NCBI RefSeq assembly: GCF_000184705.1 | Contig: NC_014831.1 | Span: 868,001-932,000, forward strand | Length of the DNA: 64,000 nt | Origin: Thermaerobacter marianensis DSM 12885 | GTDB taxonomy: Bacteria > Bacillota > Sulfobacillia > Thermaerobacterales > Thermaerobacteraceae | Direction: 5' to 3' | Shown here: one piece after another, positions 3,988 through 14,543 of the stretch | How the letters are laid out: every line of letters begins with the position of its first letter | Position numbering within the stretch: the stretch's first letter is position 1 | The notes under the pieces: generated by a model | Databases searched by the model: none | Told to the model about the DNA's origin: nothing | The model's input: the letters and a program-made list of their open reading frames with translations, nothing else | Program-made: the position numbers and the translations under genes

Positions 3988-4047
3988 GTGCTGGCGGGGG
4001 GTCTCCCGGGTGCAGCCCTTGCCCTCCACCTCGCCCTGTCGGGGATT
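3988..4047 (+). pseudogene. Fragment matching the catalytic elbow of the esterase gene
   Basis: This 60-bp stretch matches 12650-12709 inside the esterase gene almost base for base. Allowing one small indel, about five positions differ, and 32 consecutive bases are identical. In the esterase it encodes VLAGFSRGAALALHLALSG, the nucleophile elbow. Here it lies between genes, directly after the miniprotein stop, with no esterase sequence on either side. It is best read as a leftover of a deleted paralogue or a short ectopic duplication. Confidence 0.65.
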
Positions 4048-4055
4048 CCGGGCCC

Positions 4056-4898
4056 TCAACCCGTGGCTTCGTCGCGGCTTGGCCTCGCCGACGGGTGCGC
4101 CAGACCCGCCGCGATCCGTGCAAAGGCCTCGGCCAGGCTGCCGCCACCCGCATACCGGGCGCGGATCTCGGCGGGCGGCGCCTCGGCGACCAGGCGACCC
4201 CGCAGCATCATGCCCAGCCGGTCGCACTGCTCGGCCTCGTCCATGTGATGGGTCGTCACCAGCACGGTCGTGCCGGTGTCGGCGAGGGCGTACATCGTGT
4301 CCCAGAAGGATCGCCGCACGCCGGGATCGACGCCGGAGGTCGGTTCGTCCAGGAGGAGCAGGGCCGGCTCGTGCAACACGGCGCAGGCGAAGGCCAGCCG
4401 CTGGCGCAGGCCCGCACCGAGGCTGGCGGCCCGGGTCCGGCGGTGATGCGTAAGCCCCGTGCGCTCAAGGAGCTCGTCGACGCGGCGGGCGAACCGCTCG
4501 CCCCGGAGTCCGTACACCCGCCCGTAGAAGAGGAGGTTCTCCTCGGCGGTGAGGTCCGGGTAGAGGCTGAACCGCTGGGACATGTACCCGACGCGGGCGC
4601 GGACGGCGGCGGCCTGCCGCGCTGGATCGAGGCCCAGCACGCGTGCGCGGCCCGTGGCGGGAACGAGTCCGAGCAGCGCCCGGATCAGGGTGGTCTTGCC
4701 GGCACCGTTGGGACCGAGCAGACCGTAGACCGCCCCCGCCGGCACCCGCAGGCTAACGCCGTCGACGGCGACGAAGTCGCCGAAGCGGCAGGTCAGGCCC
4801 TCCGTCTCGATGGCGAGGGCGTCCGCCGGCCGAGAGCCGGCGCCGGCTCCAGGGCTGCCTGCCTTGGCGGGAGCCGGACCGTGGACCGTATCCGTCAT
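4056..4898 (-). CDS. ABC transporter ATP-binding protein (second of two, efflux system)
   Basis: A 280-residue ATPase that would power export by the ABC-2 permease in the same operon. Walker A GPNGAGKT is at residues 62-69, the Q-loop at YMSQ, Walker B LLLLDEPTSGVD at about 186-197, and the switch histidine in TTHHMDEAE. The signature motif is degenerate: ASLGAGLRQ replaces LSGGMRQ, losing the first Gly of the signature. The first 28 residues are a Pro/Ala-rich extension. It starts 14 bp after the stop of the other ATPase, so the two are co-translated. It corresponds to one half of the two-ATPase YbhF-type subunit. Confidence 0.9.
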   Translation of the reverse strand: MTDTVHGPAPAKAGSPGAGAGSRPADALAIETEGLTCRFGDFVAVDGVSLRVPAGAVYGLLGPNGAGKTTLIRALLGLVPATGRARVLGLDPARQAAAVRARVGYMSQRFSLYPDLTAEENLLFYGRVYGLRGERFARRVDELLERTGLTHHRRTRAASLGAGLRQRLAFACAVLHEPALLLLDEPTSGVDPGVRRSFWDTMYALADTGTTVLVTTHHMDEAEQCDRLGMMLRGRLVAEAPPAEIRARYAGGGSLAEAFARIAAGLAHPSARPSRDEATG

Positions 4899-4912
4899 CG
4901 GTGCATCGCCTC

Positions 4913-5905
4913 CTAGGTCGGGTCGGTGGACCCTGGGGACGAACCGGCGCCGGTCCCGACGGCCGCGGCAGCCGCCGCGGTGGGGCCGACCTGCGAGAGC
5001 CAGAGGTAGGCATCTTCCAGCGTCGGCTCGGCCGGGAGGATCGTTGTGCCGGACGGGGCTTCGGGCGTGGGCGCGTCCGGTGCCAGGGCGAAGCGCACGC
5101 CTGCACCCACGATGCGGGCGTCGACCACGCCCGGAAGGCGCCGGGCTGCCTTGAGCAGCTGCCGCCGGCGACGGTGCGCGGTCGGGGCGGCCTCATGGCC
5201 CGGGGGATGCACGGCCGCGGGCTGCACGTCTGCCGCCGGTTGCAGGATCCCCATCCGGTACGGCACCCGGGCGCGGATCTCGGCCGGGCTCCCCGTGGCC
5301 AGGATCCGGCCTGCAGCCAGCAGGGCCACCCTCGGGCACAGTTCGGCCTCGCCGAAGTACGGCGTGGCGACCAGCACTGCCATGCCGTTCCGAGCCAGCT
5401 CGCGCAGCAGCTTCCACAGCTCATCCCGAGCCAGCGGGTCGACGCCGGTGGTGGGTTCGTCCAGCAGGGCGACGGCGGGCCGGTGGATCAGGGCACAGGC
5501 CAGGCCGAGCTTCTGACGCATGCCGCCGGACAGGTTCCGCGCCAACCGGTGGCGGAACGGGTCCAGGTCGGTCCACGCGAGCAGGCGCTCGGCCTCCCGC
5601 GAGAGCGCCTGGGGGTGCATCCCGTAGAGGCGGCCGAAGAAGGTCAGGTTCTGCCACACGGACAAATCGGGGTAGACGCTGCTGCTCCCCGCCAGGTACC
5701 CGATGCCGGCGGAGGGCCGTACGACCCGCCCGGCCGTGGGGGTGAGCACCCCGGCGGCGATGCGCAGCAGGGTCGTCTTGCCCGCGCCGTCGGGGCCGAT
5801 CAGGGCGGTCAGGGTCCCCGCCGGCAAGGCGAGGTCCACGTGGCGCAGGGCCTCGACGGCGCCGAAGCGGTGGCTCACCCCCTTGAGGCGCAACAACGCG
5901 TCCAC
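4913..5905 (-). CDS. ABC transporter ATP-binding protein (first of two, efflux system)
   Basis: A 330-residue ATPase with a complete cassette: Walker A GPDGAGKT (residues 37-44), signature LSGGMRQK, Walker B ALLDEPTTGVD. The usual switch histidine after it is replaced (VATPYFGEAE), so its site may be catalytically weak. That complements the neighbour with the degenerate signature but intact His. About 80 extra residues follow the cassette, ending in a DUF4162-like region. The GTG at 5905 follows AGGAGGG at seven bases; longer starts lack a ribosome site. Second structural gene of the tetR operon. Confidence 0.9.
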   Translation of the reverse strand: MDALLRLKGVSHRFGAVEALRHVDLALPAGTLTALIGPDGAGKTTLLRIAAGVLTPTAGRVVRPSAGIGYLAGSSSVYPDLSVWQNLTFFGRLYGMHPQALSREAERLLAWTDLDPFRHRLARNLSGGMRQKLGLACALIHRPAVALLDEPTTGVDPLARDELWKLLRELARNGMAVLVATPYFGEAELCPRVALLAAGRILATGSPAEIRARVPYRMGILQPAADVQPAAVHPPGHEAAPTAHRRRRQLLKAARRLPGVVDARIVGAGVRFALAPDAPTPEAPSGTTILPAEPTLEDAYLWLSQVGPTAAAAAAVGTGAGSSPGSTDPT

Positions 5906-6065
5906 CGCGCATCCCTCCTCCTCGCTTCCCGTCGTCATGTGCGCGGGCCGGTTCGTCCGCATCGGCCAGGCAGCGCTACCCGGGATGGGGCCGGTTCGTC
6001 CCGTCTCCCGGTCGGTTGGGTTCGGGGCCGGGTGTTGCAAGGTCCGGTTGGCAACCGAAGCCGGC

Positions 6066-7373
6066 TCACGCAGCGGTCAGGCGGCGCCGTAGCCGCACCG
6101 ACGCCAGGGTCACTAGCGCCACGCCGAAGAACGCCAGCGCCAGCGCGTTGGGCCAGAGCACGTCCAGGCCCTGCCCCTTTAAGAAGATGCCGCGGGCGAT
6201 GGGCACGAAGTAGGTGAAGGGCAGGACCATCGAGATCCACTGGATCACCCTGGGCATGGAGCTGACCGGGAAGATCAGGCCGGAGATCAGGATCTGCGGG
6301 AACATCACGAAGAAGGCCAGCTGCATCGCCTGCTGCTGATTCTCCGAGACCGTCGAGACGAGCACGCCGAGGCCGACGGTGCTCAGGAGGAACAGCAGGG
6401 TCAGCCCGGTGAACAGCGCCAGGCTGCCCGCCGGCTCGAGGCCGAACAGGGTGATCCCTGCCACGAGGACCAGCACGAAGTCGACGCCGGCCAGGACGAT
6501 GTAGGGCAGCAGTTTGCCGACCACTAGCTCGAACGGGCGCAGCGGTGTGACCGCCAATTGTTCGAGGGTCCCGTATTCGCGTTCGCGCACGATGCCCAGC
6601 GCCACCAGCAAGGTGGTGGCGAGCATCGTCACCATGCCCAGGAGGCCGGGGATCATCACCGGGGCGCTCTTGAGGTCGGGATTGTAGAGGATCTCCACGT
6701 CGGGCGCGAGGTTGGGCGGTTCCGGAAGATCGGCCGGGGCTACGTCGAGGGCGTCGACGTCGGGCGCCTGGAGGGTATCGGTCGGCAGGCCCATGGCGGC
6801 CAGCCGCTGCCGCAGGGGGGCCAGGCGTTCCTCCCACTGCGCCCTGAGGTTCTCCTCCAGTCGGGACCGCACGTCCTGCTCCACCTCGGCTTGCACGGCG
6901 TCCTGGATGGCGGCCTGCAGTTCGTCCTGGACCTCTTCCATGGCGTCCTGCAGCAGCCGGGCGCCGGCCTGGGCGCTGAACAGCTGGGAGCCGTCGAGCA
7001 GCGCCTGCATGCGGGCGGTGCTCCCTGGCTCGCCGAAGCCGGGGGGAAGGATCACGGCCATGTCGAGGGCGTCTTGGCGGATCTGCTGGCGGGCATGACG
7101 GTCGATCTCGGTCAGGGATGCCCCTTCGGGGAGGGGCAGTGCGACCGGCCGGAACTTCTTGTAGTCTCTGAGGGCCCCCGCCAGGATGCGTCCGGCCTCG
7201 GTGCCGCTGCGGTCGACCACGGCGACGCGCAGGTCGGAGACATCGAAGCTGAAGGCATAACCGAAGAGGAGCAGCCAGACCAGCGGGATGACGATGATCA
7301 TGGCCAGGGTCCGGTGATCGCGACGCAGGTGGATGAATTCCTTGGCCATGACCGAACCGATGCGGCGTCCCAC
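6066..7373 (-). CDS. ABC-2 type efflux permease (YbhS/YbhR-like)
   Basis: A 435-residue membrane protein of the ABC-2 exporter family. One transmembrane helix at about residues 24-45 is followed by a large extracytoplasmic domain (about 45-245) containing a charged amphipathic coiled stretch. Five more helices follow (about 255-430), with the family hallmark REREYGTLEQLAVTPLRPFELVVGKLLPY after the first. This is the layout of YbhS/YbhR, which export drugs and cationic compounds. The GTG at 7373 follows AGGAG; an ATG eight codons later is possible. Only one permease gene is present, so the transporter is probably a homodimer with two different ATPases. No membrane-fusion protein is present, as expected without an outer membrane. 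Confidence 0.9.
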   Translation of the reverse strand: MGRRIGSVMAKEFIHLRRDHRTLAMIIVIPLVWLLLFGYAFSFDVSDLRVAVVDRSGTEAGRILAGALRDYKKFRPVALPLPEGASLTEIDRHARQQIRQDALDMAVILPPGFGEPGSTARMQALLDGSQLFSAQAGARLLQDAMEEVQDELQAAIQDAVQAEVEQDVRSRLEENLRAQWEERLAPLRQRLAAMGLPTDTLQAPDVDALDVAPADLPEPPNLAPDVEILYNPDLKSAPVMIPGLLGMVTMLATTLLVALGIVREREYGTLEQLAVTPLRPFELVVGKLLPYIVLAGVDFVLVLVAGITLFGLEPAGSLALFTGLTLLFLLSTVGLGVLVSTVSENQQQAMQLAFFVMFPQILISGLIFPVSSMPRVIQWISMVLPFTYFVPIARGIFLKGQGLDVLWPNALALAFFGVALVTLASVRLRRRLTAA

Positions 7374-7389
7374 GGCGATCGCGCTCCTT

Positions 7390-8166
7390 TCACGAGCCGG
7401 CCTGCGACGGCCGTCCGGCCGCCTGCTCGGGTGCCACACCACGCCAGAACACGTCGGCAGCCTGCTCCAGCGCCCGCTCCAGGAGGCCGGGGAGGGGTGC
7501 GGGAGGCGGTTGGGTGGCCGGACGCGGAGCGCCGTCGGCAGGCTCCGCGCCGTCGTCAAGCTCTGCGCCGTCGTCATGCTCCGCGCTGTGACCCGGATCC
7601 GCGCCGTTTGCCTGTGCCTCCCCGTCGCCAGGCGCCATGCCATCCGGAGCGAGCAACAGATGCAACAGCACCTGGGACATCATGAGTCCCAAAAAGAGCC
7701 GGGCGGTCATGGCGGGGTCGACGGGACGCAGCCGTCCGCGTTCGACCTGCTCCGCCAAGTACCGGGTGAGGCCGTCGAAGACGGGACCCAGGACGCGTTC
7801 GCGCCAGAGGATCCGGAGCCTCGGGTGCCGCAGGCCGTCCGCGAGGAGCAACCGGGCCACGTCCCGGGTGGCATCGGACCGGAAGGCCCGCCCGATCTCG
7901 CGAGCCATGCTGCGGAAGAACTGCTCGGGCGGGGCATCGCCCGGGTCGGCCAGGAGCCGTCCCAGCGGCAGGGCGGGCGACTTCGCCTCGGCGACGGCGA
8001 GGAAGAGGTCCTCCTTGTTGCGGAAGTACCAGTAGATGAGACCGGGCGCGACCCCCGCCTCTTCCGCGATCTCGCGGTTCGATGCCCCCTTGAACCCCTT
8101 GCGGCTGAATACCCGAAAGGCGGCGTCGATGATCTGCTGGCGGCGGTCTGGGTGCGGGCGCTCCAC
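7390..8166 (-). CDS. TetR-family transcriptional repressor of the efflux operon
   Basis: A 258-residue TetR/AcrR regulator. The helix-turn-helix lies at about residues 7-55 (IIDAAFRVFSRKGFKGASNREIAEEAGVAPGLIYWYFRNKEDL), followed by a helical ligand-binding domain. The C-terminus has a low-complexity tail of repeated H/D-x-A-E and D-D-G-A units at about 200-235. It is the first gene of the leftward operon and stops 16 bp before the permease, so it most likely represses its own operon in the absence of a drug ligand. The start is GTG with a weak AAGGAA upstream. The palindromic operator lies 32 bp upstream. Confidence 0.92.
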   Translation of the reverse strand: MERPHPDRRQQIIDAAFRVFSRKGFKGASNREIAEEAGVAPGLIYWYFRNKEDLFLAVAEAKSPALPLGRLLADPGDAPPEQFFRSMAREIGRAFRSDATRDVARLLLADGLRHPRLRILWRERVLGPVFDGLTRYLAEQVERGRLRPVDPAMTARLFLGLMMSQVLLHLLLAPDGMAPGDGEAQANGADPGHSAEHDDGAELDDGAEPADGAPRPATQPPPAPLPGLLERALEQAADVFWRGVAPEQAAGRPSQAGS

Positions 8167-8197
8167 GGTCTGACCCCGTTCCTTGCCCGTTCCTTGA

Positions 8198-8213
8198 TTG
8201 ATTGATCAATCAA
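8198..8213. promoter_or_regulatory. Palindromic operator for the TetR-family repressor
   Basis: TTGATTGATCAATCAA is a perfect 16-bp palindrome centred at 8205/8206, with one extra TTGA unit on its left side (8194-8197). It lies between the tetR start (8166, leftward) and the rightward isomerase frame. Size, symmetry and AT-richness against this GC-rich background fit a TetR-family site. Autoregulation is inferred from position. Confidence 0.8.
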
Positions 8214-9260
8214 AATGGTAGGGGTTCGTCCGGATGGTGTCAACACCGGATCCATGCCGGCTGTGATTCGCCCCGTGAAACATGTGCTACGGCTGCTCAG
8301 AGCCGGACTCCGGTGTTTGTCGGCTGCGGTTCATCCCATTACCTGGCGCTGTACGGTGCCCACCTGGCACAGCAGCTGGCCAAGCGACCTGGGGCGGCGG
8401 TGACGGCCTCCGAAGCGTGGCTCGCCCCCGATGTCCATCTTTGGCCCTGGTCGAACCCCTTTGTTGTGGCCATCTCCCGCTCGGGGGCCACCACGGAGGT
8501 GGTTCGGGCCGTCCAGGTGGCCCGGCAGCGGGGCATCCCGACCCTGGCCCTGACCACCAATCCCGACGCCCCGCTGGTGCGGGAGTGCGACGCCAGCCTG
8601 GTGCTCGATCACGTGACCGAGCGGAGCGTGGTGATGACCCAATCCTTCGCCAACCTGCTGCTGGCGCTGCAGTACCTAGTTGCCCTGGGCGCAGGCACGC
8701 CCGCGGCCCACTCGTTTGAATCCCGTCTGCCCGCTGTCACCCAGGCCGTGGCGGACGTCTTTCCCCGGCTGGCGGAGGCGGCCCGCGAGGTGGTTGGTCG
8801 GGGGTGGCGGCGGTACGTTTTTCTCGGGACCGGTCCGCTTTACCCCGTGGCTTGCGAAGCGCGCCTGAAGGTCCAGGAAATGACGCAAGGGAAGGCCCAT
8901 GCGTTTGTGACGCTGGAGTTCCGGCACGGCCCGCTGTCCCTGGTCGACGGCGAAACCTGCGTCACCATCCTCACCACCCCGGCGACGGCGGCGCTCGATC
9001 GGGAACTGGCCGGCGAAGTGGCGGCGCTGGGCGCCCAGGTGGTGCTGGTGGGGCCGCAAGTCCGGGCGGGAGGTACGACCCGATCCTCGCCCGTGACGGG
9101 GGTGCCGCTGCCCGAGGGGCTTGAGGACGCCCACTATGCAGGGCTCGCCTTGCCGTTTCTTCAAGTTTTGGCCTTGGAACAAACCCTCCTCTTGGGCAAG
9201 AACCCGGACACGCCACGGCACCTGAGCCACGTGGTCACCCTGCACGATGACCAGGGTTAA
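8202..9260 (+). CDS. SIS-domain sugar-phosphate isomerase/deaminase, apparently N-terminally truncated
   Basis: The protein carries two SIS domains of the AgaS/GlmS-isomerase type: FVGCGSSHYLALYGA with ISRSGATTEVV in the first, and a second with LGTGPLYPVACEARLKVQEMTQGKAHAFVTLEFRHGP. It should act on an amino-sugar phosphate such as galactosamine-6-phosphate. Family members usually have 40-50 helical residues before the first SIS motif. Here that region (8202-8300) reads as nonsense in all frames. The only upstream start is a TTG inside the TetR operator, without a ribosome site. It is therefore probably truncated at the 5' end. The downstream DeoR and aldolase genes fit an amino-sugar pathway. 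Confidence 0.75.
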   Translation: MINQNGRGSSGWCQHRIHAGCDSPRETCATAAQSRTPVFVGCGSSHYLALYGAHLAQQLAKRPGAAVTASEAWLAPDVHLWPWSNPFVVAISRSGATTEVVRAVQVARQRGIPTLALTTNPDAPLVRECDASLVLDHVTERSVVMTQSFANLLLALQYLVALGAGTPAAHSFESRLPAVTQAVADVFPRLAEAAREVVGRGWRRYVFLGTGPLYPVACEARLKVQEMTQGKAHAFVTLEFRHGPLSLVDGETCVTILTTPATAALDRELAGEVAALGAQVVLVGPQVRAGGTTRSSPVTGVPLPEGLEDAHYAGLALPFLQVLALEQTLLLGKNPDTPRHLSHVVTLHDDQG

Positions 9261-9372
9261 ACGGCATCCCCGCGGGTTGAGCGATGGCTCGATCGGTCGG
9301 CGGCCCGCCACGGGTGTTCCTCGTTGCGGCCCACCCCAAGGGGGGACGACCCACCCAAAGGGGTGACGAAGC

Positions 9373-10143
9373 GTGAGTCAAGCGGCGTCACCGGATCGAC
9401 TGAATTCCGTGCTAGAAATTCTCCGCCAACGCGGGCGCATGCGGACCGCGGAGCTGAACCGGTTGCTGGGTGTAAGCGAGGTCACCGTCCGCCGCTATCT
9501 AAGCCGCTTGGAGAACGAGGGCAAGATCCGGCGTTATCACGGCTGGGCCGCCTCGGCGGACGAGCCGACGGTGGAGCGTTCCTTCCGGGAACGGGCACAG
9601 CAGGCCCTGGCGGAAAAGGAACGGATCGCGCGCCGCGCGGCCGCCATGGTCCCGGAGGGGGCCACGATCATGTTGACCGGCGGTACGACGACGGCCCGAG
9701 TGGTCGAGATGCTTCGCGGCCGGAAGAATTTGACCATCATCACCTCGGCCTTCAACATTGCGGCAGAGGTCGTCAACTGGGAACAATGCCGGTTGATCGT
9801 TTCCGGAGGGTTGGTCCCCGAAGGCTCGTACCAGATGATCGGTCCGACCGCGGTCTCCGCCGTGCAATCCCTCACCGCCGACATTGCGTTCATCGGTGCC
9901 AGCGGCGTGAGCCCCGAACACGGTGTGACCACCTCCGACGTCTTTGAGGCGGAGGTGGACGCGGCCATGGTGCGTGCGGCCCGTCGCGTGGTGGTGGTGG
10001 CCGATCGCCGGAAGCTGGGTCGCACGGCGCTGGCGGTGATCTGCCCGATCCAGGACGTCCACGTGTTGGTGACGGACAGCGGTGCCCCGCAGCCCATTTG
10101 TAAAACCCTGGAGGGACTCGGCGTCGAGGTCATTCGCGCCTAG
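9373..10143 (+). CDS. DeoR-family transcriptional regulator
   Basis: A 256-residue DeoR/GlpR-type repressor, typically released by a phosphorylated sugar. The N-terminal winged helix-turn-helix covers about residues 10-58 (MRTAELNRLLGVSEVTVRRYLSRLENEGKIRRYHG). The C-terminal sensor has the family signatures TGGTTTARVVEML and FIGASGVSPEHGVTTSDVFEAEV. The GTG at 9373 follows AAGGGGTG at six bases. It sits between the SIS gene and the aldolase and probably controls them. The upstream spacer has two CCACCC(C/A)AAGGGG-like copies (about 9329-9365) that could be its binding site. Confidence 0.92.
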   Translation: MSQAASPDRLNSVLEILRQRGRMRTAELNRLLGVSEVTVRRYLSRLENEGKIRRYHGWAASADEPTVERSFRERAQQALAEKERIARRAAAMVPEGATIMLTGGTTTARVVEMLRGRKNLTIITSAFNIAAEVVNWEQCRLIVSGGLVPEGSYQMIGPTAVSAVQSLTADIAFIGASGVSPEHGVTTSDVFEAEVDAAMVRAARRVVVVADRRKLGRTALAVICPIQDVHVLVTDSGAPQPICKTLEGLGVEVIRA

Positions 10144-10208
10144 GGATCTCAAGGTGATCTCGAGGTTCAGATCGTCCCCCGTCCCATATTCGTCAGGGGG
10201 TCGAGAGC

Positions 10209-11081
10209 ATGCTGGTGGATCCAAGGGAGCTACTTGCCGTCGCCCAGCAGGGAGGCTACGCCATTCCCGCGTTCAACGTCCATGGCCTTGACATGGTGCC
10301 GCCGCTGGTCGAAGTGGCCGAGGCCGAGCGAGCGCCTCTCATCCTTCAGGCCACGCGCAGCACCGTGGAGGCCACCGGGTGGGAGCCGCTGGTGGCCGTG
10401 GCGCTGGAATGCGCCCGTCGCGCCCGGGTTCCGGTGGCCTTGCACCTGGACCATGCGTCGGATCGGCAGCTGATCTATACCGCCATCCGGCATGGGTTCA
10501 CCTCGGTGATGGCCGACGGTTCCGCCCTGCCCTTCGACGATAACGTGGCCTTCACGCGTAGCGTGGTCGAAGTAGCCCACTTAGCCGGGATCCCCGTCGA
10601 GGGGGAGCTGGGGTACGTGCCCCGGCCAGCGACGGCGATGGCGCAGGATCCCGAGGCGGCCGGCGAAGGCCCGCCGGCCGACCTACTCATCCGCCCCGAC
10701 GAGGCGGAGGCCTTCGTGGCTGAAACGGGGGTCGACAGCCTGGCCGTGGCCATCGGAACGGTGCACGGCTTTTACCGGGGCACCCCCCGGCTGGACTTCG
10801 AACGGCTGGCGGCCATCCGTGCTCGGGTCCATGTCCCGCTTGTCTTGCACGGCGGATCGGGTCTTGCGGACGAGCATCTGGCCAAGGCCATTGTGCTGGG
10901 CATGGCCAAGGTCAACGTGGCCACCGAACTCAAGGCGGCGTGGTCCCAGGCGGTGCGTCAGGCGGTAGCCGAGAACGACGACATCGATCCCCGGCACGTT
11001 CTGCGTGCCGCCCGTAGGGCGCTGCAAACCGTGGCCGTGGCCTGGCTGCGGCGGTGCGGGGCGGTCGGCCGGGCCACGTGA
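10209..11081 (+). CDS. Class II fructose-bisphosphate/tagatose-bisphosphate aldolase family protein
   Basis: A 290-residue zinc aldolase cleaving a ketose bisphosphate to dihydroxyacetone phosphate and an aldehyde. LHLDHASD holds the catalytic Asp and first zinc His. Further zinc ligands are in TVHGFYRG and LVLHGGSG, and GMAKVNVATEL binds the phosphate. Length matches GatY/KbaY/FbaA. With a SIS isomerase and DeoR regulator next to it, tagatose-1,6-bisphosphate aldolase of an N-acetylgalactosamine-type route is the favoured guess, but glycolytic FBA cannot be excluded. ATG 10209 follows AGGGGG. Confidence 0.92.
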   Translation: MLVDPRELLAVAQQGGYAIPAFNVHGLDMVPPLVEVAEAERAPLILQATRSTVEATGWEPLVAVALECARRARVPVALHLDHASDRQLIYTAIRHGFTSVMADGSALPFDDNVAFTRSVVEVAHLAGIPVEGELGYVPRPATAMAQDPEAAGEGPPADLLIRPDEAEAFVAETGVDSLAVAIGTVHGFYRGTPRLDFERLAAIRARVHVPLVLHGGSGLADEHLAKAIVLGMAKVNVATELKAAWSQAVRQAVAENDDIDPRHVLRAARRALQTVAVAWLRRCGAVGRAT

Positions 11082-11220
11082 GATACCGGGTCCGGATCTT
11101 GCCTTGGTTGGGCTGCGCCGGTGATGCTTTTCTGGACGGGGCCGGATACGCCCTTTTCAGCACGCTGGGTGAGCGCGGACAAAGCGCGCATGCCCAAGGG
11201 AAGGAGCGTCATCAACGACG

Positions 11221-11760
11221 GTGTCGGTGTTATGGGACATCTTCATTGCCTTCACGCGGGCCAACCTTCTGGGTTACGGCGGCGGCCCGTCGGTCATCCC
11301 GTTGATCGAGGCGGAAGTGGTCGATACCTACCACTGGATGACGGCATCGGAGTTCGCCGATACGCTGGCCATCGGAAACGCCCTGCCTGGGCCCATTGCC
11401 ACCAAGCTGGCTGCCTATATCGGCTACCAGGTGGCCGGCGTGCCGGGGGCCGTGGTGGGGGTGTTGGGGACGGTTCTACCCACCGCCATCCTCATGGTGG
11501 TCCTGGCCGTCATGCTCCTTCGCTTCCGCGATGCGCCGTTGATCCAAGGCGCGATCAAAGGGGCCAAGGCCGTGGTGTGGGTCCTGTTCCTCCTGCTGGT
11601 GTTCGACTATATGTCGTTCGTCCGGCCCGACCGGTCGGGGTGGGTGGCGACGGCCATCGCCGTGGCCACCTTGACGGCCATTCACATTCAAATGTTTAAG
11701 GTTCACCAAGCGGTCGCCATTGCCGCGGGGATCGTACTCGGTGCGTTGTTCTTGCGGTAA
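11221..11760 (+). CDS. Chromate transporter, single CHR-domain half protein
   Basis: A 179-residue integral membrane protein of the ChrA family (CHR domain). The pattern FTRANLLGYGGGPSVIPLIEAEVV, GNALPGPIATKLAAYIGYQVAG and GTVLPTAILM is characteristic. It has about five to six membrane helices. Short CHR proteins usually occur as adjacent pairs that assemble with opposite topology; no partner is next to this one. The GTG start has AAGGAG 14 bp upstream, an unusually long spacing. Chromate or sulfate export is the family role; the actual substrate here is unknown. Confidence 0.85.
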   Translation: MSVLWDIFIAFTRANLLGYGGGPSVIPLIEAEVVDTYHWMTASEFADTLAIGNALPGPIATKLAAYIGYQVAGVPGAVVGVLGTVLPTAILMVVLAVMLLRFRDAPLIQGAIKGAKAVVWVLFLLLVFDYMSFVRPDRSGWVATAIAVATLTAIHIQMFKVHQAVAIAAGIVLGALFLR

Positions 11761-11784
11761 CGACACCCCCACTCCCGGGTGTCG
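11761..11784 (+). terminator. Hairpin after the chromate transporter gene
   Basis: CGACACCC (11761-11768) pairs perfectly with GGGTGTCG (11777-11784) around an 8-base loop, directly after the stop codon. There is no T run, so it may stabilise the 3' end or give weak termination. The esterase ribosome site follows immediately. Confidence 0.5.
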
Positions 11785-11803
11785 GTAAGAGGGGGGTGCA
11801 GCG

Positions 11804-12064
11804 GTGACAGCCTTCGATCGACTGGCCTCGCGGGTGTTCGAGCTCTACCAGCGCCGGCAATACCGGCAGGCCCTGGATCTCCTTGACGCGGTGACAGCCT
11901 TCGATCGACTGGCCTCGCGGGTGTTCGAGCTCTACCAGCGCCGGCAATACCGGCAGGCCCTGGATCTCCTTGACGCGGTGACAGCCTTCGATCGACTGGC
12001 CTCGCGGGTGTTCGAGCTCTACCAGCGCCGGCAATACCGGCAGGCCCTGGATCTCCTTGACAAG
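11804..12064 (+). repeat. Triplicated 87-bp (29-codon) unit at the start of the esterase gene
   Basis: Three tandem copies start at 11804, 11891 and 11978, each beginning with GTG. Copies one and two are identical over all 87 bases; copy three differs only in its last few bases, where it joins unique sequence. The unit encodes VTAFDRLASRVFELYQRRQY and nine further residues, a TPR-like helical hairpin. The length keeps the frame. Perfect identity implies very recent duplication or ongoing copy-number change. Confidence 0.97.
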
Positions 12065-12985
12065 GAGGGGGTCGGTCACCCGGAACAGGCCTGGCACATC
12101 GGATATTGGCGGGTTTGTTTGCTGACGCGCCTGGGCGACGCGGAGGCCGCGTTGACCCATTTGGAGCAACTGCTCGACCAGGGCCTGTGGATTCCCGTGA
12201 CATGGTTACGCAACGACCCCGACCTGGCCGGGCTTCGGGGCCATCCCCGCTTCGAGCGGGCGGTCGCGGTGTGCGAACAACGTCAGATCGAAGCGCAACG
12301 AATGGTCGTGCCGCGGCGCGTCCTCCTGTTCCCCGAAGGAACCGCTCTACGTCCCGAAGGTACCGCGCTCAACCAGGGCAGCGGGTCCGCCCCGCCGGGC
12401 CGGAATTCCGTCCCGGTCCTGATCGCGCTGCACGGCAACGCCGAGAACGCCGCCAGGGCGGCGGACTGCTGGCGCTTCGTGGCCTCCCGGGGATGGGCCC
12501 TTCTGGCCCCTCAGTCGACCCAGGTCATGGGTCCGGATGCCTACCACTGGGACGATCTCGACCGAGGTGCACAGGATGTCCTGTACCATTACCGGTCGGT
12601 GCTCGACGATGCGGCTGCCCCGGGGGTTTCCCTCGATCCCAAGCGGGTGGTGCTGGCGGGGTTCTCCCGAGGTGCAGCCCTTGCCCTCCACCTCGCCCTG
12701 TCGGGGGTTCTACCTGCCCGGGGTGTCATCGCCCTTGCGCCCCACCTGAGGGATTGGAGCTACATGGAAGGCCTTCTGGAGCCAAGCCCTCGCAACCCAG
12801 GCCTCCGGGCCTACTTCTGGGCCGGGTCTCGGGACGAACCGGCCGTCCGCATGAGCGAGGACGTGGCCCGGTGGATGGAGGCGGCGGGCCTTACGGTACG
12901 GGTCGAGGTCGTCCAGGGGGCCGGGCACTTCTACCCGCCCGACCTCGAGGCGCGCATCGCACCGCTGCTCGCCGCGTGGCGGTGA
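11804..12985 (+). CDS. Alpha/beta-hydrolase (carboxylesterase/phospholipase type) with triplicated N-terminal helical repeat
   Basis: A 393-residue protein. Residues 1-87 are three identical 29-residue helical repeats (FDRLASRVFELYQRRQYRQA), a TPR-like array continuing with less similar helices to about 165. Residues about 205-393 form a serine hydrolase: oxyanion region LIALHGNAEN, nucleophile Ser288 in GFSRG, probable acid Asp344 (GSRDE) and His375 (GAGHFYP). This is the dienelactone hydrolase/phospholipase-carboxylesterase group; substrate unknown. The GTG start follows AGGGGGG. Internal GTGs at 11891 and 11978 open each repeat but lack ribosome sites. Confidence 0.88.
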   Translation: MTAFDRLASRVFELYQRRQYRQALDLLDAVTAFDRLASRVFELYQRRQYRQALDLLDAVTAFDRLASRVFELYQRRQYRQALDLLDKEGVGHPEQAWHIGYWRVCLLTRLGDAEAALTHLEQLLDQGLWIPVTWLRNDPDLAGLRGHPRFERAVAVCEQRQIEAQRMVVPRRVLLFPEGTALRPEGTALNQGSGSAPPGRNSVPVLIALHGNAENAARAADCWRFVASRGWALLAPQSTQVMGPDAYHWDDLDRGAQDVLYHYRSVLDDAAAPGVSLDPKRVVLAGFSRGAALALHLALSGVLPARGVIALAPHLRDWSYMEGLLEPSPRNPGLRAYFWAGSRDEPAVRMSEDVARWMEAAGLTVRVEVVQGAGHFYPPDLEARIAPLLAAWR

Positions 12986-13158
12986 TGCGCTGCGGAAGGG
13001 TGCGAGCAGTGGCGGGAAGTGCAAGGACGGGGCGGTGTAAGGACGACCCCGGCCGAGGGGCAATCTAGGGAGGGTCCGAATTCCTCTGAGCCGTCAGCCG
13101 CAGGTACGGCGACCGGCCCCGGGTCTCGGGAAGCCGTCGCAAGTTGCAAGGACGCCCC

Positions 13159-14340
13159 ATGACCGGACGACCACCGCACCCAACCCCTCAGGCATCGCCC
13201 GCAGCGCCGCGGAGCAGGGGGCGCCGTGCTGCACCGTCGCCCCAGGCGCCGGCGGGGGAGGGGTCGCATTCGGCTGGCGGGACGGCCCCCTCCTCCCCAG
13301 CGGACCGCGAGGCGGCGACGGCGGGTGCCGGCTCCGGCACCATTTGGGGTGCGACCCTCCAGGTGGGCGGCGTCCGGCTGCATCTGGGCTTCGTTGCCAT
13401 CTGCCTCTCGGAGCGCGACTGCTCGCCTGCCGGCTCCATGACGGTGGCGGCCGCGTCGCGCCTCGACCCCGAAGCCCGTCGCTACCGCCTGCGCGAGATC
13501 GCCCGCCGCAACCTGGACAACACCCTGCGGATCCTGTTCTTCCTCAAGGCCCACGGCATCCGCCTCTACCGGATCTCGGCCAACCTGATCCCCCTGGCGA
13601 CGCATCCGCTGACCTCCGGCTGGTCGTGGTGGGACGAACCGGACCTGCGCGCCGTAGGGACCAGGATCGGCCGCACGGCCAGGGAGACGGGCGTCCGCCT
13701 GAGCTCGCACTTGCCCGAGGTGTGCGGGGCCGGCAGCGAGAGCCAATTTCGCTGGCTCCAGGCCTACTTGGACTACCACCGCCGCCTGTTCGACCTCCTG
13801 GACCTGGACGAACGGGCCAAGATCGTGATCCACGTGGGCGGGCGCGGCGGCCGCGGGCGGGCGGGGCTCCCGGCGCTGGTCGAGACGGCGGCCCGCCACC
13901 TGGATCGGCTGGACGAGTGGTCCCGGTCCCGGCTCGTGCTGGAGAACGACGACCGGACGGTGGACCTGGTCACAGCCCTTGACCTGGCCGAGCGGTTCGA
14001 CCTGCCGGTGGCCTTCGACTGGCACCATCACGTCTGCTGTCCACCGCCCGGCTTTCCCGACCCCCGCAGCGCCGACGGCGTGGCGGCCCTTGAACCCCTG
14101 GTGGCCCGCGCCTTCCGCCTGTGGCGCGACCGCCCGCCCAAGATCCACCTTTCGAGCCCGCGGGATGGCAAGAACCCTCGGGCCCATGCCGATTATGTGG
14201 ACCCAGCCTTCATCGCGCCGCTGCTCGAGGTTCTGGCCCGCCTGGACGTCGGGGAAGTCGATGCGATGGTCGAGGCCAAGAAGAAGGACCTGGCCCTGTT
14301 CCGGTTGGTGCAGGATTTCACTGGCGGGCGAAAGGGATGA
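13159..14340 (+). CDS. uvsE: UV damage endonuclease UvsE/UVDE
   Basis: A 393-residue metal-dependent nuclease that nicks DNA 5' to UV photoproducts, an alternative entry to excision repair. Family landmarks appear in order: HLGFVAICLSERDCSP, GIRLYRISANLIPLATHP, HVGGRGGRG, the metal ligands in LENDD, DWHHH and PKIHLSSPR, then HADYVD and the closing VEAKKKDLALFRLVQDF. The first 60 or so residues are a Pro/Ala/Ser-rich extension. The ATG at 13159 has AAGGA six bases upstream; a TTG five codons earlier is a weaker choice. It appears to be a single-gene unit. Confidence 0.93.
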   Translation: MTGRPPHPTPQASPAAPRSRGRRAAPSPQAPAGEGSHSAGGTAPSSPADREAATAGAGSGTIWGATLQVGGVRLHLGFVAICLSERDCSPAGSMTVAAASRLDPEARRYRLREIARRNLDNTLRILFFLKAHGIRLYRISANLIPLATHPLTSGWSWWDEPDLRAVGTRIGRTARETGVRLSSHLPEVCGAGSESQFRWLQAYLDYHRRLFDLLDLDERAKIVIHVGGRGGRGRAGLPALVETAARHLDRLDEWSRSRLVLENDDRTVDLVTALDLAERFDLPVAFDWHHHVCCPPPGFPDPRSADGVAALEPLVARAFRLWRDRPPKIHLSSPRDGKNPRAHADYVDPAFIAPLLEVLARLDVGEVDAMVEAKKKDLALFRLVQDFTGGRKG

Positions 14341-14543
14341 CTGCAATATCATGCGACGAGCACGCGAAGCCTGGCGCGATGGGGACGACGCCTGGGCTGC
14401 GTACAACTTGCCTGGCATGGCAGGCTGGCGGAGTGTGACGCTCTCACGCCTCTGCAGGGTCCTCCACCGCCCATACCGAACTCTCCATTCAGCGTACCGC
14501 TCCGCATCGCTCGACCCGATCCGTCTCTAGGGAGGTATCGAGC

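Follow-up and report, generated by a model that had tools for sequence, protein, structure and literature searches.

The window, a 64-kb stretch of the Thermaerobacter marianensis genome, carries a gene for a predicted α/β-hydrolase whose 5′ end consists of three letter-identical, head-to-tail copies of an 87-bp unit (Table 1). Of the 35 rows that TRF returned for the window, this array (11801-12061; period 87, 3.0 copies, 100% matches, 0% indels) is much the strongest, at a score of 522, and direct comparison of the copies revealed that the 87-bp periodicity halts exactly at both ends. The original prediction of a triplicated 29-codon unit is confirmed in slightly stronger form, as copy 3, which had been described as nearly identical, matches copies 1 and 2 over all 87 bp. 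It had seemed imperfect because the register counted from GTG (11804-12064) ends in codon AAG instead of GCG. As proposed, an in-frame GTG is present in every copy and the reading frame is kept throughout. Copies 2 and 3 lack a Shine-Dalgarno-like sequence, and we therefore rejected them as internal start sites.

Table 1 Features of the repeat array and its surroundings, in window coordinates
Feature	Position	Strand	Remarks
Esterase relic	3988-4048	+	62 columns, 94% to the gene's own nucleophile-elbow segment (12650-12710); far (left) edge of the gene block
Gene block, ~7.7 kb	4049-11782		Not at the same site in the two single-copy congeners
Shine-Dalgarno-like AAGAGGGGGG	11787-11796	+	5′ of copy 1 only; counterpart visible in relatives
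Repeat copy 1, 87 bp	11801-11887	+	Holds start GTG (11804) with ribosome-binding site
Predicted α/β-hydrolase (esterase), 393 aa	11804-12985	+	Open frame, Pfam, alignment
Repeat copy 2, identical to copy 1	11888-11974	+	Internal GTG without Shine-Dalgarno-like sequence
Repeat copy 3, identical	11975-12061	+	Runs into conserved rest of esterase gene; aligns with the relatives' single copy
Inverted repeat CTCCTT-GAC-AAGGAG	12053-12067	+	Array stops exactly after the GAC loop; stem appears in fold

The unit has no other occurrence in the 2,844,696-bp one-contig genome. Scanning 984 kb (464 kb of the same genome, 500 kb from two congeners and 20 kb from a third) for arrays of at least two exact copies with a period of 15-1000 bp, we found eight. 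Apart from the 87-bp triplication, all have short periods (19-35 bp) and about 2-2.5 copies. On this 984-kb sample, we rejected the idea that the genome is rich in exact long tandem repeats in general. A new promoter near the array was also rejected, with 0 promoter-like sites found at 11000-12200 (0.2 expected). Our literature search returned nothing specific to the esterase gene, and we make no claim that the array is absent from print.

The encoded protein combines an N-terminal helical domain with a hydrolase domain containing conserved Asp and His, as is found in PF22316 hydrolases, and esterase is the activity predicted from its sequence. PF22316 (ABhydrolase-like_N) matches residues 64-165, starting within copy 3 (43.2 bits, cut-off 27), and several α/β-hydrolase Pfam models score above cut-off. 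The G-x-S-x-G motif reads GFSRG, and S288, G290, D344 and H375 are invariant in the family alignment; judging from the fold, Ser288, Asp344 and His375 form a candidate catalytic triad. Copy 3 fits the PF22316 family profile and structure and, on the alignment, is the ancestral N-terminal helical hairpin. Because it is copy 3 that aligns with the relatives' single copy, copies 1 and 2 are read as additions, together contributing 58 residues; a one-copy version of the hydrolase would measure 335 aa.

Among solved structures, the best match across the full length of the single-copy protein, including the N-terminal helical domain, is an uncharacterised hydrolase from B. cereus (PDB 5f2h; hmmsearch E 3.3e-49; Foldseek rank 1), which corresponds to the single-copy form of the esterase and not to the tripled form. 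In domain arrangement it superposes poorly on our model, with a Foldseek rmsd of 28 (TM 0.49-0.55). Pfam, this solved relative and the structure model support the prediction of an esterase-type hydrolase with an N-terminal domain of helical-hairpin type. The TPR-like label that had been given to the N-terminal arm holds only loosely. The TPR models ANAPC3, SRP_TPR_like and TPR-S match at E 0.03-0.05, all under the Pfam cut-off, and the period is 29 residues, as against the 34-residue helix-loop-helix-loop of a TPR. The protein departs from TPR in both period and profile, and is therefore not to be filed as such. Over the helical region, the esterase profile also picked up designed pentatricopeptide-repeat proteins (E 2e-6).

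We used AlphaFold to predict the structures of the one-copy and three-copy proteins, with alignments made shallow by a supply of only four database relatives besides the window sequences. The one-copy model (mean pLDDT 89.3, pTM 0.87) contains helices at residues 3-16 and 20-33. In the three-copy model (mean pLDDT 75.3, pTM 0.63), helix B of one copy continues into helix A of the next, giving fused 26-residue helices at 20-45 and 49-74, drawn at low confidence. The first 60 residues score about 51-66, and part of the hydrolase domain likewise becomes less confident. As the alignments are shallow and the added copies have no relatives in them, the drop in pLDDT is a weak argument, which neither demonstrates misfolding nor supports a well-formed arm.

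Copy number and divergence among relatives

Two of the three congeners hold the esterase gene, each with a single copy of the unit (G003 and G002, 93% and 90% protein identity, respectively), and the third (G001) is without it. Between species, copy number is therefore 3 versus 1 and 1, with one genome per species. This comparison of orthologues had been suggested with the original prediction, and gave one copy in both congeners holding the gene. In genome contigs, a single-protein query found nothing and an alignment query found 30 loci. We then surveyed 20 rows, including the T. marianensis esterase, for a second unit upstream; G472 (L134) has the same sequence as L052, leaving 18 distinct PF22316-type relatives. 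None of the 18 has a second unit, compared with a score of 119 for the T. marianensis esterase against a shuffle maximum of 37. L086, L137 and L049 have fewer than 14 upstream residues, too short for a 29-residue copy, and were unscored. For L132-L137, the match start was assumed; their sequences look consistent with this assumption, and a check was made on L132. The survey excluded 8 family matches below the Pfam cut-off (2 + 6), the frame-broken L053, L050 (the same protein as the counted G030) and the other loci of the 30-locus set.

The copies show 0 differences from one another, against 9 in 87 positions between the unit and the single copy of either G002 or G003, the pattern of a recent intragenic tandem amplification. 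At the sites that differ from G002 and G003, all three array copies are identical to one another. Between the esterase gene and that of G003, the nearest relative, there are 51 differences in 1,008 positions. A triplication dating from the G003 split should by now show about 9 differences across 174 repeat sites, and none was seen (P about 1.5e-4). Since the congeners are single-copy and none of the 18 relatives has a second unit, we conclude that the triplication is a recent, lineage-specific, in-frame gain. The very recent expansion that had been proposed is thus upheld; gene conversion, offered as another source of identity, is superfluous because a single-copy ancestor accounts for it.

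Lineage-specific substitutions are over-represented in the 5′ unit. The first 84 bp of copy 3, counted from GTG, carry 8 lineage-specific substitutions versus 31 in the other 924 bp (Fisher P 0.012, uncorrected for several comparisons), and nowhere in the gene are such substitutions packed more densely than in the first part of the unit (8 in 55 bp). Rather than simple drift, this excess could reflect adaptation or the acquisition of a divergent 5′ end in place of the original. Synonymous divergence of the esterase gene is 0.13 and 0.11 from G002 and G003, respectively, the lowest in a neighbourhood where the other genes compared with these two genomes range from 0.17 to 0.56, and dN/dS is fairly high, at about 0.3 (11978-12985). 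On these sequence comparisons, the low synonymous divergence suggests exchange between species.

Gene order around the array

In G002 and G003, the esterase gene directly follows the aminotransferase-side region. In T. marianensis, the two are separated by the gene block, encoding two ABC ATPases, an ABC permease, TetR, a SIS-domain sugar isomerase, DeoR, a class-II aldolase and a chromate transporter. The right edge of the block lies about 20-35 bp from the array. At its other edge is the esterase relic, a trace of an earlier esterase copy or of a rearrangement; its 62 columns contain 4 differences, including 2 indels. As the array adjoins the block and the relic marks its far side, we take the locus to be prone to rearrangement. 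The relic has decayed and the repeats are without differences, so the triplication is probably younger than the rearrangement.

The transporter part of the block also lies near the acyl-CoA dehydrogenase gene in G001, the congener without the esterase. There, the operon (L048, 12599-14336) seems partly degraded relative to that of T. marianensis, with one ATPase at 67% protein identity and the permease matched over 216 codons only. More widely, gene content between the class-V aminotransferase and acyl-CoA dehydrogenase genes (3990-14540; L048, L027, L029) differs in each of the four Thermaerobacter genomes, the contents being the transporter block, the esterase, UvdE and, in G001, an Mrr-like nuclease. 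Because of these differences, the locus seems to be a variable one. Beside the esterase gene is a single chromate-transporter domain gene (11221-11760); short ChrA proteins are usually paired, so a partner gene could have disappeared from the junction.

Repeat junctions and origin of the array

The junction between copies, CTTGAC-GCGGTG, has no base in common with either flank. We rejected microhomology at the junctions, as the periodicity ends exactly at both sides, and we rejected the TGAC near both breakpoints as an explanation, as the junction retains eight extra bases. The CTCCTT-GAC-AAGGAG inverted repeat at the array's end may have been a stalling site, with unremarkable folding energies. 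Fold z-scores of 0.50, 0.53 and -0.96 (the last for the whole stretch) were not significant, and strong single-strand structure of the unit was rejected. Bacterial end joining requires Ku, which is encoded in all four Thermaerobacter genomes; its presence makes end joining possible and proves nothing.

On the basis of these observations, we propose that a single-copy PF22316-type α/β-hydrolase gene underwent, in the T. marianensis lineage only, an 87-bp in-frame tandem duplication at its extreme 5′ end. The breakpoints fall 3 bp ahead of the start codon and within the CTCCTT-GAC-AAGGAG palindrome, with no bases in common. Because the junctions are blunt and without microhomology, we infer illegitimate joining, perhaps through fill-in and blunt end joining of a staggered break. 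The two identical copies would then have become three via homologous unequal exchange or replication slippage, and an unequal exchange between the first two copies would naturally yield the second identical junction. As 87 bp is divisible by three and copy 1 keeps the ribosome-binding site on its 5′ side, the product would be a hydrolase with 58 extra N-terminal residues, expected to form two more copies of the first helical hairpin. The open frame and intact catalytic core point to a change that was most likely tolerated, not selected, and that could be reversed by recombination. We consider the account as a whole, a recent in-frame duplication followed by expansion to three and probably tolerated rather than selected, to be likely.

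An array of letter-identical copies might also have been made or miscounted in assembly or finishing, with the genome holding one copy or two, and Illumina reads of the sequencing period were short. Errors in tandem-repeat counts are documented in finished bacterial genomes, including a collapse in B. anthracis and differences in M. capricolum (PMC2397507), and at 261 bp the array nears the mean 454 read length for T. marianensis of about 314 bp (216.6 Mb in 689,185 reads; PMC3035304). However, expansion requires the CTTGAC-GCGGTG junction, which is missing from any single-copy genome, and there is no microhomology to prompt an assembler to create it. The finished genome is described as resting on 91x 454 and 340.8x Illumina coverage with a finishing step for mis-assemblies (PMC3035304), a depth at which many 454 reads should cross one junction. 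Given the need for the junction sequence and the reads expected to span it, at least two copies are very likely and exactly three is less certain. We therefore find an assembly expansion improbable and take the triplication as real as sequenced, although the actual copy number may be lower (one or two) or higher than three.

Of the biological alternatives, the original prediction suggested a possible tunable spacer, its copy number varying between cells and lengthening the N-terminal arm with the catalytic domain undisturbed. As a selected arm, such a spacer would have a variable copy number, every unit adding to a helical N-terminal rod by which the hydrolase is positioned or oligomerised. 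In its favour, one unit makes up an entire helix-turn-helix, the three-copy AlphaFold model draws the fused helices described above, and intragenic repeats differ among strains in other bacteria (PMC2639597). Yet that arm is itself predicted at low confidence, the rest of the three-copy model is also less confident (overall, 89 falls to 75 once copies 1 and 2 are included), none of the 18 relatives has extra units, and the Legionella arrays described in the same source were unchanged during passage (PMC2639597). On these predictions, the spacer reading is not favoured, and we hold a selected arm to be unlikely. A bolder version would see a repeat domain at birth, with added units extending a staircase of fused 26-residue helices, unlike the side-by-side stacking of TPRs, into a rod, carried by a thermophilic esterase, whose length would follow copy number and be reversible. 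From helix geometry, such a rod would gain about 20 angstroms per unit; we regard this as a long shot. The triplication could instead be a by-product of the rearrangement that placed the 7.7-kb block upstream, a complex event leaving the 62-bp relic and a damaged, re-copied 5′ end. The array's start so close to the edge of a block absent from both single-copy congeners, the relic at the other edge and the substitution cluster in the first part of the unit are consistent with this. A relic that has already decayed next to repeats with no differences makes the triplication look younger, however, and we think a common origin doubtful.

Comparison with known repeat systems

A recent in-frame duplication expanded to three copies is an ordinary type of mutation, here caught unusually fresh and with no sign yet of usefulness. 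Repeat proteins are thought to arise by amplification of helical hairpins, and most examples are old and diverged. At this locus, single-copy orthologues are available for comparison with identical copies and a legible junction, and the mutational step and its immediate folding cost could therefore be measured directly. If the change is merely tolerated, it still provides a clean datum on the survival of in-frame events.

The esterase array adds a new example to a known kind, in which a helical hairpin has recently been amplified. For TPR proteins, such amplification of one hairpin was described by Zhu et al. (2016), who also built a design from a natural hairpin in triplicate (PMC5074805). 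Compared with the TPR arrays described there, the esterase period is 29 and not 34 residues, its model has no inter-repeat loop, the hairpin is at the N-terminus of an enzyme, and the copies have 100% DNA identity, with single-copy orthologues at hand. The intragenic repeats reported from Legionella pneumophila resemble the esterase array in lying in frame within bacterial genes and having units divisible by three; some of these units are 87 bp and some are polymorphic between strains (PMC2639597). Most of the Legionella arrays listed in that source have diverged (about 58-94% identity, with one 21-bp array at 100%), whereas the three copies of the esterase array are identical.
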